Origin: Sedimentisphaera salicampi
GTDB taxonomy: Bacteria; Planctomycetota; Phycisphaerae; Sedimentisphaerales; Sedimentisphaeraceae
Length of the DNA: 64,000 nucleotides
Reading direction: 5' to 3'
NCBI RefSeq assembly: GCF_002117005.1
Contig: NZ_CP021023.1
Location: 1,798,001-1,862,000 of the forward strand
Within the stretch, counting starts at the first letter, position 1. Each line of letters starts with the position of its first letter. The position numbers and the translations under genes were made by a program. The notes below the pieces were generated by a model that did no database searches, was not told the DNA's origin, and worked only from the letters and a program-made list of their open reading frames with translations. Positions 15,771-26,582 of this stretch are shown here, piece by piece.

Positions 15771-16904
15771 TCAGCAGTTCTGCTTTCTAAACTTTAACGG
15801 CGAAATGCCAGTTTGCAGCTTAAAATATCGTGAGATGTGGTTGGCATCATCAAATCCCATGGTGTAAGCGATCTCAGCGACAGGCATATCCGTCTCTGTG
15901 AGCATTTTTTTCATTAAGTTTGTTCTCACCCTTTTTATTTCATCATAGACGCTCCTGTTCAAAATTCGTCTGAAACGCCTCTCAAGGCTTCGCCTGTTCA
16001 CACATACAGCTTCAGCTACATCACTTACCTGTATGTTTTCTCTGCTGTGCTGGGAGATAAAATGCAGAGCAGCGGCGAGGTCTTTATCGTGTATTGCTTT
16101 TATATCCGTTGAGGCCCTTGAGATCACCCTTTCAGGCTCCACTGTAATAAAATCTGTTGGCGATTGTCCGGTTTTGATCAGCCTGTCCAGCGTTCTTGCG
16201 GCCTCGTATCCGGCTTTAGTTATGTTGAGAGAGATGCTCGAGAGCTCAGGGGATACCATTTCGCATATCATATCGTCATTATTAACGCCCAATATTGATA
16301 ATTCCTGCGGTATTCGCACGCCTGCAAGCTTGCAGGCCTCTATAATGCTCGCCCCGCGGACATCGTTGCAGGCCATAAGCGCTGCGGGTTTAGGCAGAGA
16401 TATCAGCCATTCTGCTAACCGCTGGAGCTTGCTTTCGTAATCCAAAGAACCGCTTCTGTCTTGATAAGTGCTTATCTTTTTGTAATCAGGGAGATTTTTT
16501 ATAAAGGCTTCCCGTCGCTGAACAGACCAGGGCATATCCTCAAACCCGCAATAGGCAAAATTGGAATAATTTCGCTCCATAAGGAAATCTGCGGCCATTT
16601 TTCCTATCGCTTCGCAATCGCTGACTATATTCGGAACGCCTTCAACCTTATTCTCATAGCGAATTGAGACCACTGTGGGCAGGTTATAATTGAGCAGTTT
16701 CATATTTTCGGCGGTATCTCTCATAATGATTCCGTCAAGATTCTCGCCGGAGAGATTGGGGAGGGCATCGGCAATTCCCCGCGGTTCATTGTAAAACACC
16801 CAAGAAGCAGCAACGTTTGCATATTGCAAAATGCCCCTGATCAATGCCCTGCCGTATGAGGTGGATGTTTCAATGAGCAAAGCTATTCGTTTTGTTTGCT
16901 GCAT
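15771..16904 (-). CDS. XylR-type transcriptional regulator (LacI-like sensor plus AraC DNA-binding domain)
   Basis: A 377-residue regulator. The N-terminal two-thirds is a periplasmic-binding-like sugar sensor (RIALLIETSTSYGRALIRGI, ALMACNDVRGASIIEACKLA, ILGVNNDDMICEM). The C-terminal part is an AraC/XylS double helix-turn-helix (IQVSDVAEAVCVNRRSLERR and PVAEIAYTMGFDDANHISRY). This architecture is that of E. coli XylR. ATG at 16904 is preferred over 16943 because AGGA lies 5 nt upstream. It is divergent from the eda-kdgK operon, with a paired direct-repeat site between, so it probably controls that operon in response to a sugar or sugar acid. Confidence 0.9.
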   Translation of the reverse strand: MQQTKRIALLIETSTSYGRALIRGILQYANVAASWVFYNEPRGIADALPNLSGENLDGIIMRDTAENMKLLNYNLPTVVSIRYENKVEGVPNIVSDCEAIGKMAADFLMERNYSNFAYCGFEDMPWSVQRREAFIKNLPDYKKISTYQDRSGSLDYESKLQRLAEWLISLPKPAALMACNDVRGASIIEACKLAGVRIPQELSILGVNNDDMICEMVSPELSSISLNITKAGYEAARTLDRLIKTGQSPTDFITVEPERVISRASTDIKAIHDKDLAAALHFISQHSRENIQVSDVAEAVCVNRRSLERRFRRILNRSVYDEIKRVRTNLMKKMLTETDMPVAEIAYTMGFDDANHISRYFKLQTGISPLKFRKQNC

Positions 16905-16980
16905 AAAATTCCTGCTGTCTTTTATGGTTGAATAAAATTCCATTATATTGCCAAATTACTTTCTAATCAACCCTGAAGCG

Positions 16981-17213: not shown

Positions 17214-17858
17214 ATGCATTCATACGAAGACATATTTCAAAGAATAAAACAAGAGCGAATAGTCGCTACGGTCGTTATTGACGATTTAGATAAGGTGCCC
17301 GCTTTGGCGGAAACACTCCTTGAAGCAGGTATGAGCAGTATTGAGCTAACCTTGCGAACCGATTGCGGTGTTGATGCGATCAGCGTTATAAGCAGGGAAT
17401 ATCCGGAGATGCTCGTTGGGGCCGGCACAGTTCTAAGCTGCGGGCAAGTTCGTCAGGTCGCTGAAGCCGGCGCAGAGTTTGCCGTTGCGCCGGGGTTTAA
17501 TCCGGCGGTCGCAGAAGAGGCAGTGAAGGCCGGTTTGCCTTTTGCGCCGGGCGTATGCACGCCTTCAGATGTAGAGCAGGCTTTAAGCTGTAACTGCAAA
17601 TATCTTAAATTTTTCCCCGCAGAGCCCTTAGGCGGAATCAAATATCTTAAGTCTATGGCGGCTCCGTATCTGCATCTGGGAATCGGATTTATCCCTCTCG
17701 GAGGGATCAACGCCGAAAACTTCACCCATTATCTAAGTCAGCCTTATATCACTGCTGTAGGCGGGTCTTGGCTTGCTCCAAGACAGGCAATCTCAAAAGG
17801 CGATTGGAAATTGATAAGCAATTTATGCAAAGAGGCAAAAAACAGGCTTGAGAATTGA
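17214..17858 (+). CDS. eda: KDPG (2-dehydro-3-deoxy-6-phosphogluconate) aldolase
   Basis: A 214-residue class I aldolase that splits KDPG to pyruvate and glyceraldehyde 3-phosphate. The Schiff-base lysine is in KYLKFFPAE (about residue 126), the proton-transfer glutamate in SSIELTLRT, and LVGAGTVLS and GFIPLGGINAENF are family blocks. ATG follows GGAAG. It is first in an operon with a KDG kinase, so this enzyme most likely serves uronate breakdown, not only the Entner-Doudoroff route. About 165 nt of leader separates it from the proposed promoter. Confidence 0.95.
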   Translation: MHSYEDIFQRIKQERIVATVVIDDLDKVPALAETLLEAGMSSIELTLRTDCGVDAISVISREYPEMLVGAGTVLSCGQVRQVAEAGAEFAVAPGFNPAVAEEAVKAGLPFAPGVCTPSDVEQALSCNCKYLKFFPAEPLGGIKYLKSMAAPYLHLGIGFIPLGGINAENFTHYLSQPYITAVGGSWLAPRQAISKGDWKLISNLCKEAKNRLEN

Positions 17859-17891: not shown

Positions 17892-18980
17892 ATGAAAAAG
17901 GTAGTAACATTCGGAGAGATAATGGGCAGAATAATGCCCGAGGGCTTTATGAGGTTTCGCCAGTGTCTGCCCGGGAAGGTTGATATGCTGTTTGCAGGTG
18001 CGGAGGCAAATGTTGCAGTATCGGTATCGCAGTTAGGCGGGGAGGCCGAGTTTGTTACTGCTCTGCCGGAAAACGATATAGCATCTGCCTGCATCGCTGA
18101 GCTGAGCTCATTAGGGGTGGCCACATCTCACATAATCCGCAGCGACGGCAGGTTAGGTTTATACTTCACCGAACCCGGAGCCAATCAGCGCCCCAGCCGG
18201 GTAATATACGACCGCTCCTATTCGGCAATAAGCAAAGCAGAGCCCGCAGACTACGACTGGGACGGGGTGTTCTCGGATGCAGGCTGGCTTCATATATCGG
18301 GCATAACGCCGGCGATATCAAAAAATGCTGCCGAGAGCACGCTTGCTGCTGTAAAGAAGGCGAAGCAGGCAGGGGTAACAATCTCCTGCGATCTGAACTT
18401 CCGCGCAAAGCTTTGGAAATGGAAACAAGGCATAGAGCCGCAGGCCCTTGCCCGCGAGGTAATGAGCGAGATTGTATCCGGTGTTGATGTGCTGATCGCC
18501 AACGAGGAAGACGCCGACTGCGTGCTGGGCATAAAAGCAGAAAACACGGACGTTGAAGCGGGGAGCCTCGATGTTCAGGCATATAAAGACGTGGCCGCTA
18601 AGATCAGCAGGGCATTCCCAAACATTGAAAAGATAGCCACCACATTTCGGGAGAGCGTATCGGCCTCGCACAACAACTGGGGAGCAATGCTTTACGACTG
18701 CAAGCAGGCCAAGGCCTTTTACGCCCCGACCGAAGCCGGAGAATACCAACCTTACAGAATCACGGATATTGTTGACAGAGTGGGCGGAGGAGACGCCTTC
18801 GCAGCAGGGCTTATTTTTGCTCTGAACACACCCGAGCTCAGCGGTTGCAGGGAGGCGGTGTCTTTCGCTGCTGCTTCTTCCTGCCTTGCCCATTCAATCA
18901 AAGGCGATTTCAATTTCTCCACGAGAAGCGAAGTGGAAGCGCTTGCCGGCGGCAACGCTTCGGGCAGGGTAGTCAGGTAA
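17892..18980 (+). CDS. kdgK: PfkB-family 2-keto-3-deoxygluconate kinase
   Basis: A 362-residue ribokinase-fold sugar kinase. Visible family blocks: TFGEIMGRIMPEG at the N-terminus, GAEANVAVSVSQLGG, the substrate region DLNFRAKLWKWKQG, and the active-site motif DRVGGGDAFAAGLIFAL with its catalytic Asp. It phosphorylates KDG to KDPG, the substrate of the aldolase encoded 33 nt upstream, so substrate assignment is supported by context as well as sequence. Somewhat longer than E. coli KdgK (about 310). Confidence 0.9.
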   Translation: MKKVVTFGEIMGRIMPEGFMRFRQCLPGKVDMLFAGAEANVAVSVSQLGGEAEFVTALPENDIASACIAELSSLGVATSHIIRSDGRLGLYFTEPGANQRPSRVIYDRSYSAISKAEPADYDWDGVFSDAGWLHISGITPAISKNAAESTLAAVKKAKQAGVTISCDLNFRAKLWKWKQGIEPQALAREVMSEIVSGVDVLIANEEDADCVLGIKAENTDVEAGSLDVQAYKDVAAKISRAFPNIEKIATTFRESVSASHNNWGAMLYDCKQAKAFYAPTEAGEYQPYRITDIVDRVGGGDAFAAGLIFALNTPELSGCREAVSFAAASSCLAHSIKGDFNFSTRSEVEALAGGNASGRVVR

Positions 18981-19013: not shown

Positions 19014-20294
19014 ATGCAAACACAAGAGAAGAAAAAAGTATCACCTCTAAGAAAACTCTGGCTGCTTCTTCTCACAGTAGGCCCCGGGATTTTTTGCATT
19101 GGTTACACAATCGGCACAGGCAGCGTAACCTCGATGAGCAAGGCGGGTTCTGAATTCGGCACTCAGCTTCTCTGGGTTTTGGCATTCAGCTGCCTGTTTG
19201 CGTGGGTGCTGATGGAGGCTTACGGCAGATACGCCGTGATTACCGGCGAAACAGCGATACACAGCTTCAAAACGCAGCTCAAAGGCGGTAAGTTTATAGC
19301 GATACTGGTGCTTGTGGGGGTAAGCGTAGGCCAATGGTGCTGCCTGTCTGGGCTCGTTGGCCTTTCCTCAGCGGCGGTTTACGAAACTCTGAGGCTATTA
19401 GTTCCCTCGCTGGATCCTTCCGGATATGTGCCTACGCTGATTATAGCGATTCTGATAATGGCAGTTATGTACGCCATACTCTGGTTCGGCACCTATTCAA
19501 TCTTCGAAAAGGTGCTGGTGTTTTTCGTTACGCTTCTGGGCTTAAGCTTTATTGTTTCGATGTTTATAGTGCTGCCTTCGCCTGCTGATATTGCCGAGGG
19601 TTTTATCCCGTCAATACCGGATGTGGAAGGGGCTAATCTTATGATAGCGGCTTTCGTGGGCACAACTATGGCGGCGCCTACGTTTGTTGTTCGTCCGCTT
19701 TTAGTCAAAAGCAAGGGCTGGATAGAAGCAAATGACGGCCTTCGCCAGCAGCAGAGGGATTCATTCACCTCTGCACTGATGATGTTTATTATAAGCGGCT
19801 CTGTAATGGTCTGCGCAGCGGGTGCTTTGTTCGCAGAAGGCAAGGTGATAACCAACGTGCTGGATATGGCAAACAGTTTGAGCCCGTTCGCAGGCAGATT
19901 TGCCGTTGCGCTGTTCCTCGTGGGCACGCTCAGCGCAGGGCTGTCTTCCACATTGCCTATAATGATGGTTGCCCCGCTTTTGATTTCCGACTACAACAAG
20001 GGCAAGATGGTTACTCGCTCGGTGATGTTCCGCTCGCTCACAGCAGTGGCCGCCTTGATAGGTTTGACCGTCCCAATACTCGGGGCAAACCCGATACTTG
20101 CCCAAATCGCAACGCAGGTATCGCAGGTTTTCAATCTACCGCTGGTCGTAGGCTGCATAATATTCCTCGTAAACAGCAAGCAAATGGGCAGATACCGCGC
20201 AGGCTGGCTTCTTAACTTCGGGATGGCAGCAGCGTTTATGTTCTCTCTGGTAATCTCATATATCGCAGTTTTAGGCTTGAGGGATTTCTTCTAA
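19014..20294 (+). CDS. Nramp-like transporter lacking canonical metal-binding motifs
   Basis: A 426-residue, about eleven-segment membrane transporter with the Nramp fold signature (TVGPGIFCIGYTIGTGSVTS in TM1, LMIAAFVGTTMAAPTFVVR in TM6, a LeuT-like inverted repeat). Canonical metal transporters have DPGN in TM1 and MPHN in TM6; here these positions read IGTGS and AAPTF, so the metal-coordinating Asp, Asn and Met are absent. It lies between a KDG kinase and a sulfatase with short spacers and a good AGGAG site. A different substrate, perhaps the sugar acid of this operon or another cation, is likely (inference). Confidence 0.8.
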   Translation: MQTQEKKKVSPLRKLWLLLLTVGPGIFCIGYTIGTGSVTSMSKAGSEFGTQLLWVLAFSCLFAWVLMEAYGRYAVITGETAIHSFKTQLKGGKFIAILVLVGVSVGQWCCLSGLVGLSSAAVYETLRLLVPSLDPSGYVPTLIIAILIMAVMYAILWFGTYSIFEKVLVFFVTLLGLSFIVSMFIVLPSPADIAEGFIPSIPDVEGANLMIAAFVGTTMAAPTFVVRPLLVKSKGWIEANDGLRQQQRDSFTSALMMFIISGSVMVCAAGALFAEGKVITNVLDMANSLSPFAGRFAVALFLVGTLSAGLSSTLPIMMVAPLLISDYNKGKMVTRSVMFRSLTAVAALIGLTVPILGANPILAQIATQVSQVFNLPLVVGCIIFLVNSKQMGRYRAGWLLNFGMAAAFMFSLVISYIAVLGLRDFF

Positions 20295-20358: not shown

Positions 20359-22353
20359 ATGCATAACGATAACATTAAAAAAAGTATTCTGGAAAATGTT
20401 TCACGCAGGAGCTTCTTGAAAACGGCTGCATCTTTTGCCGCAGGCTCGTCTATAGCTTCAAAATTTTTACACAGCCAAAATTATGCGTTTGGGAAGGAAT
20501 CCAAAACAAAGCCAAATATAATATTCATAATGGCTGATGATGTAGGCTATTCAGACTTAGCTGCCTACGGGCAGGAATATTTTCCAACTCCTCACACAAG
20601 CAAACTGGCAAGGCAGGGAATGAGATTAACCGATGCATACAGCAACGCCGCAGTTTGCTCGCCCACAAGATTTTCTGTATTGACTGGCAATTGCCCTTTC
20701 CGGCGCTATCACACAAGCCATGTGTTATTCAACGGCGAGCCGATGGTTATCAGGCCGGAGGATTTTAACATCGCAAAGATGCTCAAGCAGAAGGGATACC
20801 AAACAGGCGTTGTGGGTAAATGGCATTTGGGTTTGGGCAGCAGCCTTCCAAGGGATATTAACAGCCCGGGGCTCGGCCCGAACGATATTGGCTTCGATAA
20901 ATCTTACATTGTTCCCGACGGACATAATATGAAGCCGGATTATTATATAGAAGACGGCAAGATTGAAGGCGGAACAGAGCCTCCTTTTGAGAGTGAAATA
21001 AAAATAATCGAGCGATACGGCTATAAGCTTGTTAAGCATATTCCAAAGGGCAGCTGGGAAAACCGCAGGCCAGCGGAGGAGATTGGCGCACGGCTCGCTC
21101 AAAAAGCCGAAGAATTTATAGAGCAGAATGCCGATAAGCCGTTTTTCCTGTATTTCCCTACCTGCTCAATACATTTCCCCCTTGCCCCAGACAAGCGTTT
21201 TGCAGGTAAAAGCGGCGCAGGCGTTCACGGCGATTACGTTATGCAGTTTGACTGGACAATAGGACGCATAATGCAAACTCTGGACAGGCTTGGATTGGCG
21301 GAAAACACCCTGCTGATTGTTACCAGCGACAACGGCGGGTATCCGAGTTCGAGCTCACACGGAGCCGGCGAAGAAAAATACCGCCCTGCTGCTCCTTGGC
21401 GGGGGCATAAAGCCACTGCATACGAAGGCGGGCTGCGCGTTCCTTTTATCGCTCGAATGCCCGGGGTAATACCGAGAGCAGAGGTAAGCAGCGAGCCGAT
21501 AATGCTTTCGGATATGGCCGCCACTTTTGCAGCGTTAACAGGCTGTGAATTAAAACCAAATCAGGCTCTCGACAGCTTCAATGTATTGCCGGCTTTATCA
21601 GACAGCAACAGTAACAACCAGATAAGGCCGTATATCATCGGAGGAGACAGAGCCCTCAACTCCTTGGGCTTGCGGGAAGGTGAGTGGAAGCTCGTTTTTT
21701 ATCCTGCTGATGAGAAGATGGAATTGTACAACCTGAAAAACGACCCCGCAGAAAAGAACAATCTTGCCGAAAAGATGCCTGAGATTGTATGGCGGATGAG
21801 GGCTTTGCTTGAAAGCCATTTCACTTCCGGAAGCTCCCGAGAGAATGCTGAAGGCAAACGCAAAACGTTGGCAGAAATCCTGGAAGAAAAGCAGGAACGA
21901 AACAAGCTGATAGAAGAGAAATTCGGCAGCTCCGGCTCAGAGAACAAAGAAGAAAAAACGCTGCTGAGAAAACCTGTCGGCGAAATCAAACAGACCCCGC
22001 AGCTCGGCCTTGAAGTTGGAGCGGTTTTATTTTCCGACCGTGATTACAAGGTTCGCAATTTACCGGATGTTTTGAAAGGGGCAAATTTCGTTAGAACTGA
22101 TATGGACGGCAGAAAGACTATTGTCTGCAAGAAAGGCGGGATGGTGCATTTCTTAACGCCCCAGCCGCATAGAAATAAAGACAGCCAGTCGCGCAGGCTT
22201 GAGAAGCAGGGCTTTGAAAAGGTGAATATCCCGGAATTCAAATTCTTTACGGAAAGAGATTCCAACCATTGCACGCTCTATCAAAAGAATTGCAAAGAGG
22301 GGGAAAAGCTGGAATTCAGCAAGTGGGCAGTGCCGCTTGTTTTTCAAAAATGA
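20359..22353 (+). CDS. Tat-exported sulfatase with C-terminal extension
   Basis: A 664-residue type I sulfatase. The twin-arginine signal (SRRSFLKTAASFAAG, about residues 15-29) indicates folded export. Metal site and catalysis: IIFIMADDVGYSD, the formylglycine motif CSPTR (Cys about residue 101) with downstream LTG, GKWHLG, and TSDNGG. After the normal sulfatase end (KLVFYPADEKMELYNLKNDP..., about residue 470) there is a charged coiled stretch and a further domain of about 110 residues (GAVLFSDRDYKVRNLPDVL to the end) that I do not recognise. Last gene of the eda-kdgK locus; it probably desulfates an algal-type polysaccharide. Confidence 0.92.
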   Translation: MHNDNIKKSILENVSRRSFLKTAASFAAGSSIASKFLHSQNYAFGKESKTKPNIIFIMADDVGYSDLAAYGQEYFPTPHTSKLARQGMRLTDAYSNAAVCSPTRFSVLTGNCPFRRYHTSHVLFNGEPMVIRPEDFNIAKMLKQKGYQTGVVGKWHLGLGSSLPRDINSPGLGPNDIGFDKSYIVPDGHNMKPDYYIEDGKIEGGTEPPFESEIKIIERYGYKLVKHIPKGSWENRRPAEEIGARLAQKAEEFIEQNADKPFFLYFPTCSIHFPLAPDKRFAGKSGAGVHGDYVMQFDWTIGRIMQTLDRLGLAENTLLIVTSDNGGYPSSSSHGAGEEKYRPAAPWRGHKATAYEGGLRVPFIARMPGVIPRAEVSSEPIMLSDMAATFAALTGCELKPNQALDSFNVLPALSDSNSNNQIRPYIIGGDRALNSLGLREGEWKLVFYPADEKMELYNLKNDPAEKNNLAEKMPEIVWRMRALLESHFTSGSSRENAEGKRKTLAEILEEKQERNKLIEEKFGSSGSENKEEKTLLRKPVGEIKQTPQLGLEVGAVLFSDRDYKVRNLPDVLKGANFVRTDMDGRKTIVCKKGGMVHFLTPQPHRNKDSQSRRLEKQGFEKVNIPEFKFFTERDSNHCTLYQKNCKEGEKLEFSKWAVPLVFQK

Positions 22354-22555: not shown

Positions 22556-22592
22556 CTCAAAAAAACACTGCCGGTTTGTGTGCCGGCAGTGT
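22556..22592 (-). terminator. Rho-independent terminator of the Gly-rich protein gene
   Basis: Perfect 11-bp stem AACACTGCCGG (22563-22573) / CCGGCAGTGTT (22582-22592). On the minus strand it runs into a T tract (A run at 22556-22564 on the plus strand). Between it and the stop codon lies a threefold 12-bp tandem repeat (AAATGGTTTTGT, 22601-22635). The 22354-22460 stretch after the sulfatase holds no gene I can support. Confidence 0.85.
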
Positions 22593-22640
22593 TAATGAAA
22601 AATGGTTTTGTAAATGGTTTTGTAAATGGTTTCTGTAATT

Positions 22641-25600
22641 TCAGTTTCTGGAAAGTCTTCCGAGCCAGTTCTCAGCGAACTTGGCAAAATCGAGCAGGTC
22701 TATTCTGTCGTCATCAACGTAGTCGTATTCCTGCGGGAAGTTTTCTGCTGAGGCATCTTCGAGCCAATATTCCATCATATCGGAAAGTTCCGGGCTGTTC
22801 AAATAGCTCACGGTAACTTCACAGCTGTAATAATCAATCGCTTCGCCTGCTGTTTCGTTATGATTCTGGTTCATCAAGAGCCCGTCTTGCGAGGAGATAT
22901 TCGGTCCTATCTGGAAGCTGTAGCTGCCCTCAGCGGTCTGTTCCGGGAACTCTATCCTGTAAACAGGCTTGCCGGAGAGCGAAACTGATTTGGATATCCC
23001 GCTTGCTGCAACAACCCCATCAGGGCCGGTTATGCTCACATCAGCAGGCTGGAACGAGCTGTCTTGAATCGGCGAGGAGAAGCTGATCTCCAAGGAGCTG
23101 AGATACCCGTCCACAACTCCCGTCGGCGAGGTCTCGCTGAGTACGAACAGATCATCTGCAGGGCTGTGGGTGTAAACAGTGCCGTCTTCGCCGTATTCAA
23201 AGCCGCTTCCGCCGATTGCGAGAATATTAGACATCGGCAGAGCCAAATCGGCTGAATACAAAGCGATTCGCCCGCCTGAGCCGCCTCCGCCGTCTTGCTC
23301 GCTCACAATCGGCCCGTTCCCACCGTTTGCTGTTATAAGCCCGGAGCCGGTAACTGAGCCTGCTGTAATCCAGATGCTCCCGCCAGCTCCGCCGCCGGCT
23401 GCGCCCCAGCTATGCGATGGGCCGTTTTTCCCGTCAGAGCTCACAGCGCCGCTTATGCTGAGCTCACCGCCCACTTTCACCCGCAGCGAGCCGCCGCCTG
23501 CCCCGCCTGAGCCCGCGTATCCATCGCCTCCGCCTGAGCCGTAATCGCTCGGGCAGTACATATCCCCGTAAGGTGCGCCGCCTGAAAATGGGCTTTGCGG
23601 ATCACCGCCGAAGCCTCCGTAGGCTCCGCCGCCTCCGCCGGCAGAATCAGCTCTTGCTCCGCTCCCCGCGCCTGGGCCGCTTTCGTTTGGGAATCCTCTG
23701 TAGTCAGCGGCGATATATCCATCCGGTTGGATTGTTAAATTCCCTGCTGTTTCAATAGAGGCATTTGCATTTAATTGCCCGCCGGTTTCAATCAGAAAAT
23801 CTGTTTCGGCTGCTATCTCTATCATTTCGCTGCCGCTTGGCTGGGTTATTATTCCGCCGTCAGCGAGAGTTACATTATCTGCGATTAGCTTTGTCAGAGG
23901 TGCAGCCTTACCGCCGTTTTTCACCAGCAGATTGAACTTTTCCGGCGTTTCAAAATGCGTGAGTCCTTGGGAAACGCCGTTGTTATCCACTGTAACGAGC
24001 CCGTAAGTTTGCCCTTTGTCTTTAGCGTAAATTGTACCAGCTCCGCCGGCATTCCCGCTTGTGCCCGTGCCGGAGAAGGCCTCGATATTGCCTGCGAAGG
24101 TATTAGCATTGTAGTACAGAGCTATCCTGCCGCCGCCTCCAGCGCCGCCGTCTTCTTCGGTTACTACATGCCCTTCTCCTCCGTTTGCCTGAATAAGTCC
24201 GCTGCCTGAGAGAGAATCGGCGCTGAGCCAGATGCTTCCGCCAGCTCCGCCTCCTGCTGCGCCCCAGTAATGTGAAGAACCGACTGCGCCGTTGGCCTTC
24301 ACTGTTCCGTCAACAGTTATCGCTCCGGCAGCCTGAATTTTAATCCTTCCGCCGCCTTTGCCGCCTGCGCCTGCGTAGCCGTCGCCTCCACCTGAGCCGA
24401 ACTGATTCGGCTGGAATATTGAGCCGTATCCCGTTCCGCCCTGATACGGGCTGCCGGGCTTGCCGCCGTTGCCGCCGTAGGCCCCGCCGCCTCCGCCGGC
24501 AGCCTCTGCACGTGTTCCGGTGCCCGCTCCGGGGCCTTCCTGATTTGCAAAGCCGAGATGATCAGCGCTGATCAGTCCGCCTGTTTCCACGATTACATCT
24601 CCGCCTGTATTGAAATCTGCGTTCGCCTGAATGCTTCCGTCGGTTTGAACTGTAAGATCTCCGGAGACCGTGCCTTCAGAGTGGTCCATTTCTTCAGTGT
24701 TTACAACATTCCCGCCCGCTTCAACCGTGAGGGTGTTTAGGGCAAATAGATTCTCAAGGGCTGCCTGCGCCCCGCTGCTTACGGTGAGATTAAACTGGGC
24801 AGGGGTTTCAATTATTGTTGAAGTGTAGGCGTTGGAATTGTTGTTCAAAACCACTGAGCCTTCTGATTCATTCTTGTTCTTCAGGTAAATTGTGCCGGCA
24901 CCGCCGCAGCCGATTGAGCTGCCTTCTCCTCCGAAGGCTTGGAGATCTCCCGAAAAACTGCTGCCTGCATAATACAGGGCAATTCTTCCGCCGCCTCCAG
25001 CGCCGCCGTCCTCTTCGGTTACTACATGCCCTTCTCCTCCGTTTGCCTGAATAAGCCCGCTGCCTGAGAGAGAATCGGCGCTGAGCCAGATGCTTCCGCC
25101 AGCTCCGCCTCCTGCTGCGCCCCAGTAATGTGAAGAACCGACTGCGCCGTTGGCCTTCACTGTTCCGTCAACAGTTATCGCTCCGGCGGCCTGAATTTTA
25201 ATGCTTCCGCCGCCTTTGCCGCCTGCGCCTGCATATCCATCCCCTCCGCCTGAGCCGAACTGATTCGGCTGGAGTATTGAGCCGTATCCCGTTCCGCCCT
25301 GATACGGGCTGCCGGGCTTGCCGCCGTTGCCGCCGTAGGCCCCGCCGCCTCCGCCGGCAGCCTCTGCACGTGTTCCGGTGCCCGCTCCGGGGCCTTCCTG
25401 ATTTGCAAAGCCGAGATAATTCGAGCTTACCTCTGCGCCCGCTTCAACAGTGAAGCTGCCCTGAGCGTCTATCTCAATATTCGCGAGTATCTGAGAGGTA
25501 TTTTTGAGAATGCCGTCTTCTCCGATATTTAAGTACGACCTGTCAGCACCTTCAAGATTCTTCAGCTTACCCTGATTTTCGAGAGTAATGCTGTTTACAG

Positions 25601-26582
25601 AAACCAAGACATCTCCAAGGCCCGCGGATGCTGAGTTAGTTATCAAAACGTCGCAGGGCTGAGAAGGGTTAAGGGGGCTTTCAGCCCCAATTCTGCTCTG
25701 ATTATCTAAAAGGACCTGCGGGAAGGCATCTGAGCCTGATTTTGTGCATATCGTGCCTGCCCCGCCGCATCTGCCGTCTGCGCTTGTTCCTCCAGCGCAG
25801 GATATGCTGCCGGCGAAACTGCTGCCTGCATAATACAGGGCGATTCTTCCGCCTCCGCCTCCGCCGCTGTCTTCTTCGCTTACTAAAGCTCCGTTGCCCC
25901 CGTCGGCAATAAAGCTGCCGGTGCCTGCTAAGGAATCGGCTTCAATCCAGATACTGCCGCCTGCACCTCCGCCGGATGCGCCCCAGTAATGAACAGGCCC
26001 ATTCGCACCTTTGGCATCTATCATGCCGTTGTTTGTGAATGTGCCGCCGGCTGTTATCTTGATTCTCCCGCCTCCGGCTCCGCCATTTCCTGCGAAGCCA
26101 TGGCCTCCGCCTGAGCCGAGATCCTGAGGCTCTAAAATTGAGCCGTATCCCACGCCGCCTGAATAGTAGCTGTTTTCGGGTTCGCCGCCGTTTCCGCCGT
26201 ATGCCCCGCCGCCTCCGCCTGCAGAATCAGCTCTTGCTCCGCTGCCCGCGCCGGGGCCGCTTTGTGCGGGGAAACCTTTCCCGCTAACGCTGATCTCTGC
26301 GCCGGAATCTATCGTAACATCGCCGGTAATCGACAGGTCTATTTTGTTCTCTGGTGCATCGCCTGAAGGATGAGTGAGAGCGCCTCCGCTTTCGATATAG
26401 AGGCTTGCAAAGCTGTGCTCTCCGGCAACTTCCAAAACTCCTCCGTCTTTTATCACAACATCCTGACCTTCAAGAGTTGGGTCTTCTGGAGAGAGATACG
26501 ACAGATCTACGATATCGTACCCGTATAGAAAAGAAGATAAAGACAGACTTACCAATACAAGAATTGAGGTGAACCATTTCAT
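22641..26582 (-). CDS. Giant Gly-rich modular surface protein with dockerin-like tail
   Basis: 1313 residues with a signal peptide (about 1-22). Four modules of roughly 200 residues start with (S/E)GPGAG(S/T)G(A/T)R and continue with GGGGGAYGG, GSGGG(D/H)G(Y/F)AG and a GGAGGSIW(I/L) segment. Their DNA starts lie near 26277, 25404, 24552 and 23692 (period about 860 bp). Modules 2 and 3 are almost identical at the DNA level. Between modules are beta-helix-like segments (DGGVLEVAGEHSFASLYIES). The C-terminus has an Ig-like part and DDDRIDLLDFAKFAENWLGR, a dockerin-like half. A cell-surface or matrix protein is likely; no enzyme domain is visible. Confidence 0.8.
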   Translation of the reverse strand: MKWFTSILVLVSLSLSSFLYGYDIVDLSYLSPEDPTLEGQDVVIKDGGVLEVAGEHSFASLYIESGGALTHPSGDAPENKIDLSITGDVTIDSGAEISVSGKGFPAQSGPGAGSGARADSAGGGGGAYGGNGGEPENSYYSGGVGYGSILEPQDLGSGGGHGFAGNGGAGGGRIKITAGGTFTNNGMIDAKGANGPVHYWGASGGGAGGSIWIEADSLAGTGSFIADGGNGALVSEEDSGGGGGGRIALYYAGSSFAGSISCAGGTSADGRCGGAGTICTKSGSDAFPQVLLDNQSRIGAESPLNPSQPCDVLITNSASAGLGDVLVSVNSITLENQGKLKNLEGADRSYLNIGEDGILKNTSQILANIEIDAQGSFTVEAGAEVSSNYLGFANQEGPGAGTGTRAEAAGGGGGAYGGNGGKPGSPYQGGTGYGSILQPNQFGSGGGDGYAGAGGKGGGSIKIQAAGAITVDGTVKANGAVGSSHYWGAAGGGAGGSIWLSADSLSGSGLIQANGGEGHVVTEEDGGAGGGGRIALYYAGSSFSGDLQAFGGEGSSIGCGGAGTIYLKNKNESEGSVVLNNNSNAYTSTIIETPAQFNLTVSSGAQAALENLFALNTLTVEAGGNVVNTEEMDHSEGTVSGDLTVQTDGSIQANADFNTGGDVIVETGGLISADHLGFANQEGPGAGTGTRAEAAGGGGGAYGGNGGKPGSPYQGGTGYGSIFQPNQFGSGGGDGYAGAGGKGGGRIKIQAAGAITVDGTVKANGAVGSSHYWGAAGGGAGGSIWLSADSLSGSGLIQANGGEGHVVTEEDGGAGGGGRIALYYNANTFAGNIEAFSGTGTSGNAGGAGTIYAKDKGQTYGLVTVDNNGVSQGLTHFETPEKFNLLVKNGGKAAPLTKLIADNVTLADGGIITQPSGSEMIEIAAETDFLIETGGQLNANASIETAGNLTIQPDGYIAADYRGFPNESGPGAGSGARADSAGGGGGAYGGFGGDPQSPFSGGAPYGDMYCPSDYGSGGGDGYAGSGGAGGGSLRVKVGGELSISGAVSSDGKNGPSHSWGAAGGGAGGSIWITAGSVTGSGLITANGGNGPIVSEQDGGGGSGGRIALYSADLALPMSNILAIGGSGFEYGEDGTVYTHSPADDLFVLSETSPTGVVDGYLSSLEISFSSPIQDSSFQPADVSITGPDGVVAASGISKSVSLSGKPVYRIEFPEQTAEGSYSFQIGPNISSQDGLLMNQNHNETAGEAIDYYSCEVTVSYLNSPELSDMMEYWLEDASAENFPQEYDYVDDDRIDLLDFAKFAENWLGRLSRN

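Follow-up and report, generated by a model that had tools for sequence, protein, structure and literature searches.

A Nramp-fold protein without the metal-binding residues in a KDG operon of Sedimentisphaera salicampi: a candidate sugar-acid importer

The window analysed here is a stretch of 64,000 nucleotides from the planctomycete Sedimentisphaera salicampi (NZ_CP021023.1, positions 1,798,001 to 1,862,000), and positions are counted from its first letter. Four genes on the same strand encode, in order, an aldolase (eda), a sugar kinase (kdgK), a membrane protein of the Nramp family and a sulfatase (Table 1), and are separated by gaps of 33, 33 and 64 bases. An earlier note on this DNA had placed the membrane protein between kdgK and a sulfatase, and both genes, as well as eda, lie where this description puts them. 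The best NCBIfam match of the kinase is the kinase half of a KHG/KDPG aldolase-kinase fusion (NF041633), at 447 bits and thus below the cut-off of 700. The divergent regulator is a candidate controller of the eda-kdgK-Nramp-like operon. A regulator of the same family is found upstream of the operon in two related loci (L087 and L088), and in a third (L007) it lies two genes upstream. The promoter scan of the window was at chance level, with 6 promoters found and 7.0 expected. A glycine-rich repetitive protein of 1,313 amino acids, whose N-terminus resembles a signal sequence and for which Pfam gave no match, is encoded on the minus strand at 22641-26582.

Table 1. Features at the Nramp-like locus, in window positions
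Feature	Positions	Strand	Basis
Divergent regulator: periplasmic-binding-protein-like sensor domain and AraC HTH	15771-16943	-	Pfam
eda-type KDPG/KHG aldolase (PF01081), first gene of the operon	17214-17858	+	Pfam, NCBIfam
PfkB sugar kinase, KDG-kinase type	17892-18980	+	Pfam, NCBIfam
PF01566 membrane protein of Nramp fold that lacks the metal site; putative importer of sugar acids	19014-20294	+	ORF, Pfam, alignment, model
TM1 unwound motif, codons of I33-G34-T35-G36-S37 (canonical DPGN position)	19110-19124	+	Alignment; helix break of the model at 33-34
TM6 break, codons of M219-A220-A221-P222-T223-F224 through invariant R227 (canonical M230, H232, H237)	19668-19694	+	Alignment, model
Sulfatase with SGSH_C match	20359-22353	+	Pfam
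Strong 11-pair hairpin between the converging sulfatase and next gene	22564-22593		Terminator-like in the minus-strand scan

The rest of the host genome narrows what the operon can do. A second eda adjoins KduI elsewhere (C1:85-87 kb), and neither UxuA nor KdgT (PF03812) was found in the host genome. The window operon therefore consists of a kinase, an aldolase and a transporter, without a KDG-making enzyme. Read simply, the imported compound would be KDG itself or a precursor that is converted to KDG by an enzyme encoded elsewhere. KdgT is the E. coli KDG permease, and its import of KDG for KdgK and Eda is the function that we propose for the window protein. KdgT belongs to an unrelated family, however, and the window protein matched PF01566 only.

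The Nramp-like open reading frame fills its span exactly and encodes 426 amino acids. Residues 38-397 match positions 1-356 of the 357 in the PF01566 profile at 191 bits, far above the gathering cut-off of 29.8. The product is named "Nramp family divalent metal transporter" by NCBIfam (NF037982; 73.8 bits, cut-off 50). It is the sole PF01566 gene above cut-off in the complete 3.19 Mb genome. The clade profile did not retrieve a second, weak site (C1:2798173; 20 bits), which was discarded. An AlphaFold model built from a 54-sequence alignment has a pLDDT of 90.7 and a pTM of 0.89, with TM1 and TM6 broken at the two motifs in Table 1. In a structure search, the model matched DraNramp best in the PDB (Z 45.5), followed by EleNRMT (Z ~43) and AdiC (Z ~30). 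The Nramp fold is thus predicted to be intact, as the earlier note had supposed from the fold signature.

The metal-binding positions in TM1 and TM6, by the same note replaced in this protein, are replaced throughout a clade of 83 members. In place of the canonical DPGN, TM1 has IGTGS, and in place of the canonical ATVMPHN, TM6 has TTMAAPTF. Across 179 aligned family members, the residues D56, N59, M230, H232 and H237 of canonical proteins, numbered via the DraNramp offset, correspond to G34, S37, A220, P222 and R227. The Asp position is Gly and the Asn position is Ser in 82 of the 82 clade members that cover TM1 (one member lacks TM1). The Met position (M230) is Ala in 82 of 83 members and Ser in one, the H237 position is Arg in all 83, and the H232 position is Pro or Ala. 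Since the substitutions recur across the clade, they are real and are due neither to chance nor to sequencing error.

Canonical Slc11/Nramp transporters (MntH, DraNramp and DMT1) and the window protein share the Pfam family, the LeuT-type fold (Z 45), the conserved GP start of TM1 and the Gln of TM10 (Q368). However, the metal and proton residues are all replaced in the window protein, and the proteins with the GTGS motif form a separate clade with another genomic context. Canonical members are defined by DxxN in TM1 and A/CxxM in TM6, and NRAT aluminium transporters by DxxN in TM1 and AxxT in TM6 (PMC8806188). NRMTs have DxxG in TM1 and TxxA/T in TM6. The window protein and its clade carry GTGS and T..A instead of the canonical pair, and the window protein does not have the NRAT motif. 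The two TM6b histidines that are implicated in proton transfer are P222 and R227 here. Among solved structures, the best sequence match is the magnesium transporter EleNRMT (PDB 7qia; 5.9e-17), with which the window protein shares the TM6 T..A pair (T217 and A220). NRMTs nevertheless retain the TM1 Asp (DAGG), which the GTGS clade does not, and the two form separate groups in the tree.

The retained T..A pair of TM6 and Gln of TM10, together with the PF01566 membership and the NCBIfam name, would suit an importer of divalent cations (Mn, Mg or Ca) that feeds the metal enzymes of the operon or takes up ions freed from calcium-bound polyuronates. In addition, EcoDMT binding-site mutants without the Met still transport Mn (PMC8806188). 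We rank cation import second among the readings but consider it unlikely. All SLC11 proteins are described as sharing the TM1 Asp, which is needed for transport and whose mutation is strongly compromising (PMC8806188), yet it is Gly in every readable clade member. An invariant Arg close to the TM6 site also disfavours a cation.

Relatives of the window protein were found by a profile search of genome contigs with a 4-sequence alignment, which yielded 80 loci; a contig scan with the window protein as single query gave no match. The 80 loci come from Bacteroidota, Planctomycetota, Verrucomicrobiota, Kiritimatiellae, Lentisphaerae and Latescibacterota, and the identity is 50-73%. Only 4 of the 392 sampled planctomycete genomes, including the host, carry a relative. 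A tree was built with FastTree for the 83 clade members together with family members from planctomycetes (71), from plasmids or E. coli (22) and from solved structures (3). The 83 members and an E. coli relative form one group with a support of 0.995 and a stem length of ~1.05. In this single tree, whose rooting is arbitrary, the GTGS clade is separate from the canonical DPGN group and from the DAGG group of NRMTs. The phylogeny called for by the earlier note thus places the protein apart from proven metal transporters and from their magnesium-type relatives. The clade is nested, along with GPGS, GPGT, GAGD and GGGT branches, in a larger group with Gly in place of the Asp, and the TM1 Asp is absent from most PF01566 members sampled in planctomycetes. 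Since several other Nramp-family branches also lack the Asp, its loss is not unique to the window gene. The GTGS clade is apparently an undescribed variant branch within the known Nramp family.

The gene neighbourhood also bears on what this clade may carry. Of the 83 clade loci, 48 have KDG-type enzymes or alginate genes at a distance of at most 5 kb, compared with 2 of 93 other PF01566 loci (p=7e-18). When KDG-type enzymes are counted by themselves and the loci are limited to Planctomycetota and allied phyla, the figures are 15 of 22 and 2 of 71 (p=2.5e-10); in both comparisons related loci are not independent, so the p-values overstate the significance. The neighbour profiles derive from the clade's own neighbours, which was offset by a laxer threshold for the controls, and about a dozen control loci have flanks of only 1.5 kb. 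The canonical DPGN genes sampled had no KDG or alginate neighbours, a further point against cation import. The remaining 35 of the 83 loci have no KDG or alginate gene within 6.5 kb. Some of these are on short contigs, and others carry different enzymes, either a DgaE-like ammonia lyase with an amidohydrolase or dehydrogenase clusters.

About ten gene arrangements occur across the clade loci. The Nramp-like gene follows kdgK or eda-kdgK, precedes eda-kdgK or dgoK-eda, or stands beside a gene for an HpcH/HpaI aldolase. It is frequently part of an entire alginate locus, and those of Saprospiraceae combine SusC/D, PL7 and PL17-like lyases, a KdgF-like cupin, MFS, SDR, kdgK and eda. By parsimony, the KDG label changes 16 times on the tree (shuffled mean 27.7) and the arrangement type 22 times. 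The KDG link has therefore been re-made or lost many times, and the genes do not form a single frozen block. The conserved neighbourhood of uronate genes that the earlier note had asked for is thus present across phyla and in rearranged orders, and we infer that the shared theme of these loci is a 2-keto-3-deoxy sugar acid. A family of ~550 amino acids without a Pfam match (cluster c23), perhaps a carbohydrate-active enzyme, is encoded directly upstream of the Nramp-like gene in five loci (L015, L032, L033, L038 and L042), usually with an HpcH/HpaI aldolase gene downstream.

The separation in the tree and the conserved uronate/KDG link together favour a sugar acid as the substrate. The GTGS protein is on balance a probable importer of sugar acids for the KDG operon, most likely of KDG-type acids or unsaturated uronates, and probably stands in for KdgT. 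This reading is well supported by gene context. The earlier note had also offered the counter-ion of a sugar acid as the substrate, a part of its proposal that gained no support. A carrier of Na+, K+ or H+, or a non-transporting sensor like the Nramp domain of plant EIN2, would be expected to lack the metal ligands, as this protein does. The residues of the bundle are strongly conserved throughout the 54 aligned sequences, however, and no signalling domain is added. Nor would a counter-ion carrier be expected to stay so close to kinase and aldolase genes while the gene order varies, and we regard both roles as highly improbable.

Another carrier is sometimes encoded nearby. MFS genes are found near the Nramp-like gene in 15 loci, and the alginate loci of the clade often encode an MFS transporter, a possible carrier of unsaturated uronate, so the Nramp-like protein may have another role there. 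It could be an exporter or exchanger that relieves the cell of accumulated KDG, pyruvate or other acid, with import left to a different carrier, for example of the MFS. This seems very unlikely, because no further carrier gene is present within the window's operon or in several planctomycete operons, and because the characterised Nramp-family members are, to our knowledge, importers.

In many clade loci, a secreted BNR protein is encoded next to the Nramp-like gene. Its model (pLDDT 77.6) matches sialidases in structure, and among its conserved residues are Arg, Glu and Tyr, which we take to be of the kind used by sialidases. The C-terminal ~127 amino acids of the window sulfatase are 46% identical to the C-terminus of such a sialidase-like BNR protein from a distant planctomycete (locus L006, 2830-4209), where the gene lies beside the Nramp-like gene, as the sulfatase gene does here. 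We found no description of a catabolic route that leads from a sialidase-fold enzyme through a 2-keto-3-deoxy acid to Nramp-like import.

More distant relatives are also found with genes of organic-acid catabolism. The E. coli relative (L098; strain JJ1886, NC_022648.1 4621492-4622721) is intact, of the GTGS type and 39% identical to the window protein, and is annotated as a metal transporter. It belongs to a cluster with LacI, CoA-transferase, enoyl-CoA hydratase and FAD-oxidoreductase genes between dnaB and qorA, and 546 of the 5,426 complete E. coli genomes carry it. In E. coli STO_Bone7 (L090; CP054241.1 799160-816412), the Nramp-like gene is split over two frames and unannotated. The 834-kb "plasmid" record of this strain carries the chromosomal genes dnaB, alr, tyrB and dusA and therefore looks like a piece of the chromosome. 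A relative in Mesobacillus foraminis (L204; NZ_CP033045.1), found by a query from the GAGD branch, follows CoA-transferase and thiolase genes. Haloarchaeal members of the GPGT branch (L091, L092 and L096) precede HyuA/HyuB, again a setting of organic-acid catabolism. Within the clade itself, loci of Cyclobacteriaceae, most of them from Cyclobacterium (L016, L017, L019, L021, L022, L024, L025, L027, L028, L031 and L084), have the Nramp-like gene oriented divergently to a conserved set of genes for two EF_0837-type amidohydrolases, a DgaE-like PLP ammonia lyase and a RidA-like protein.

The CoA-transferase genes beside the E. coli relative mean that the substrate of the wider clade may be broader. 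The protein might even import a different organic acid that merely accompanies sugar-acid operons, such as another breakdown product or an aminated sugar acid. The E. coli cluster, the CoA-transferase and thiolase genes of the GAGD branch, the HyuA/HyuB genes of the haloarchaea and the ammonia lyase and amidohydrolase genes of Cyclobacterium are all compatible with this. We nevertheless hold it to be quite unlikely, as the commonest shared neighbours in the clade are enzymes for 2-keto-3-deoxy acids or alginate.

A literature search for a sugar-acid or alginate carrier of the Nramp family returned only one figure legend on Alteromonas and the papers on PxpT and YcsG. Like the window protein, C. 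glutamicum PxpT and B. subtilis YcsG belong to the Nramp family and are encoded in operons for organic-acid catabolism. Growth on 5-oxoproline depends on PxpT, and PxpT/YcsG has been proposed as a 5-oxoproline importer (PMC13274462, 2026). YcsG has also been reported as a Mn importer (PMC10448178), so its function is disputed; the Mn report speaks for cation import by the window protein as well. YcsG is a remote structural match (9a52_A), with 11% identity over the structural alignment. PxpT and YcsG also differ from the window protein in operon type: the 5-oxoproline type is marked by a position beside pxpABC, whereas the window gene has eda, kdgK and a sulfatase as neighbours. In Alteromonas 76-1, a Nramp "metal-ion transporter" is drawn within the alginolytic systems (PMC6431674, Fig. 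S3 legend), so that, going by the legend, a Nramp gene lies in an alginate locus as in the GTGS clade.

The contexts in E. coli, Mesobacillus, haloarchaea, PxpT and Alteromonas suggest that PF01566 proteins without the Asp may be carriers of organic acids. We tentatively put forward a wider proposal in two parts, which as a whole we think possible but doubtful. First, the Asp-less group (GTGS, GPGS, GPGT, GAGD and GGGT), the third group of PF01566 and a large one, would consist broadly of organic-acid carriers, with GTGS specialised for 2-keto-3-deoxy sugar acids. Second, in part of the GTGS branch, a secreted sialidase-fold enzyme may free a ketosidically bound 2-keto-3-deoxy acid for import by the Nramp-like carrier.

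Amino acids and sugars are already among the substrates of the wider LeuT/APC fold. The earlier suggestion of a new substrate class for the fold is for this reason too strong, and the proposed import of 5-oxoproline by PxpT/YcsG weakens it further. APC carriers (GkApcT, AdiC and BasC) have the next-closest folds to the model and share a glycine-rich break in TM1. With an identity of only ~8-15%, however, we do not claim the window protein as a member of the APC family. In GkApcT, the substrate carboxylate is held by the TM1 amides of Thr43-Gly44, and in AdiC by Ser26 and Gly27 (PMC5803215); BasC holds it on Ala20-Gly21 (PMC6472337). The G-T-G-S break, judged from sequence, resembles this arrangement.

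Import by the GTGS protein could then proceed as follows. A carboxylated sugar would be released by a secreted enzyme that differs between genomes: a sulfatase, an enzyme of sialidase fold or a polysaccharide lyase. The Nramp-fold protein in the cytoplasmic membrane would import a 2-keto-3-deoxy aldonic acid, for example KDG, or a close unsaturated-uronate precursor, and we infer both the transport and its inward direction. The LeuT-type rocking bundle would drive the transport. Going by the model, the carboxylate of the sugar acid may take the place of the metal in the site, held, as in the APC amino-acid carriers, by amides of the backbone at the glycine-rich GTGS break of TM1. The invariant Arg227 on TM6b may assist in its binding and add positive charge. 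In the cytoplasm, kdgK and eda, dgoK and eda, or an HpcH/HpaI aldolase acting directly would convert the sugar acid to pyruvate and an aldehyde.

If a sugar acid is the substrate, the metal-binding site of a LeuT-type carrier has been turned into a site for organic anions, and the missing transporter is supplied for KDG operons that lack KdgT. Which members of the Nramp family transport metals in the first place would also have to be asked anew. About 10% of complete E. coli genomes carry a relative, which puts the substrate question within reach. Because of the automatic label "divalent metal transporter", sugar-acid and alginate uptake systems of Bacteroidota and Planctomycetota are read as metal uptake. 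Given the loss of the metal residues and the sugar-acid operon setting, a whole branch of the metal-transporter family may be misnamed.
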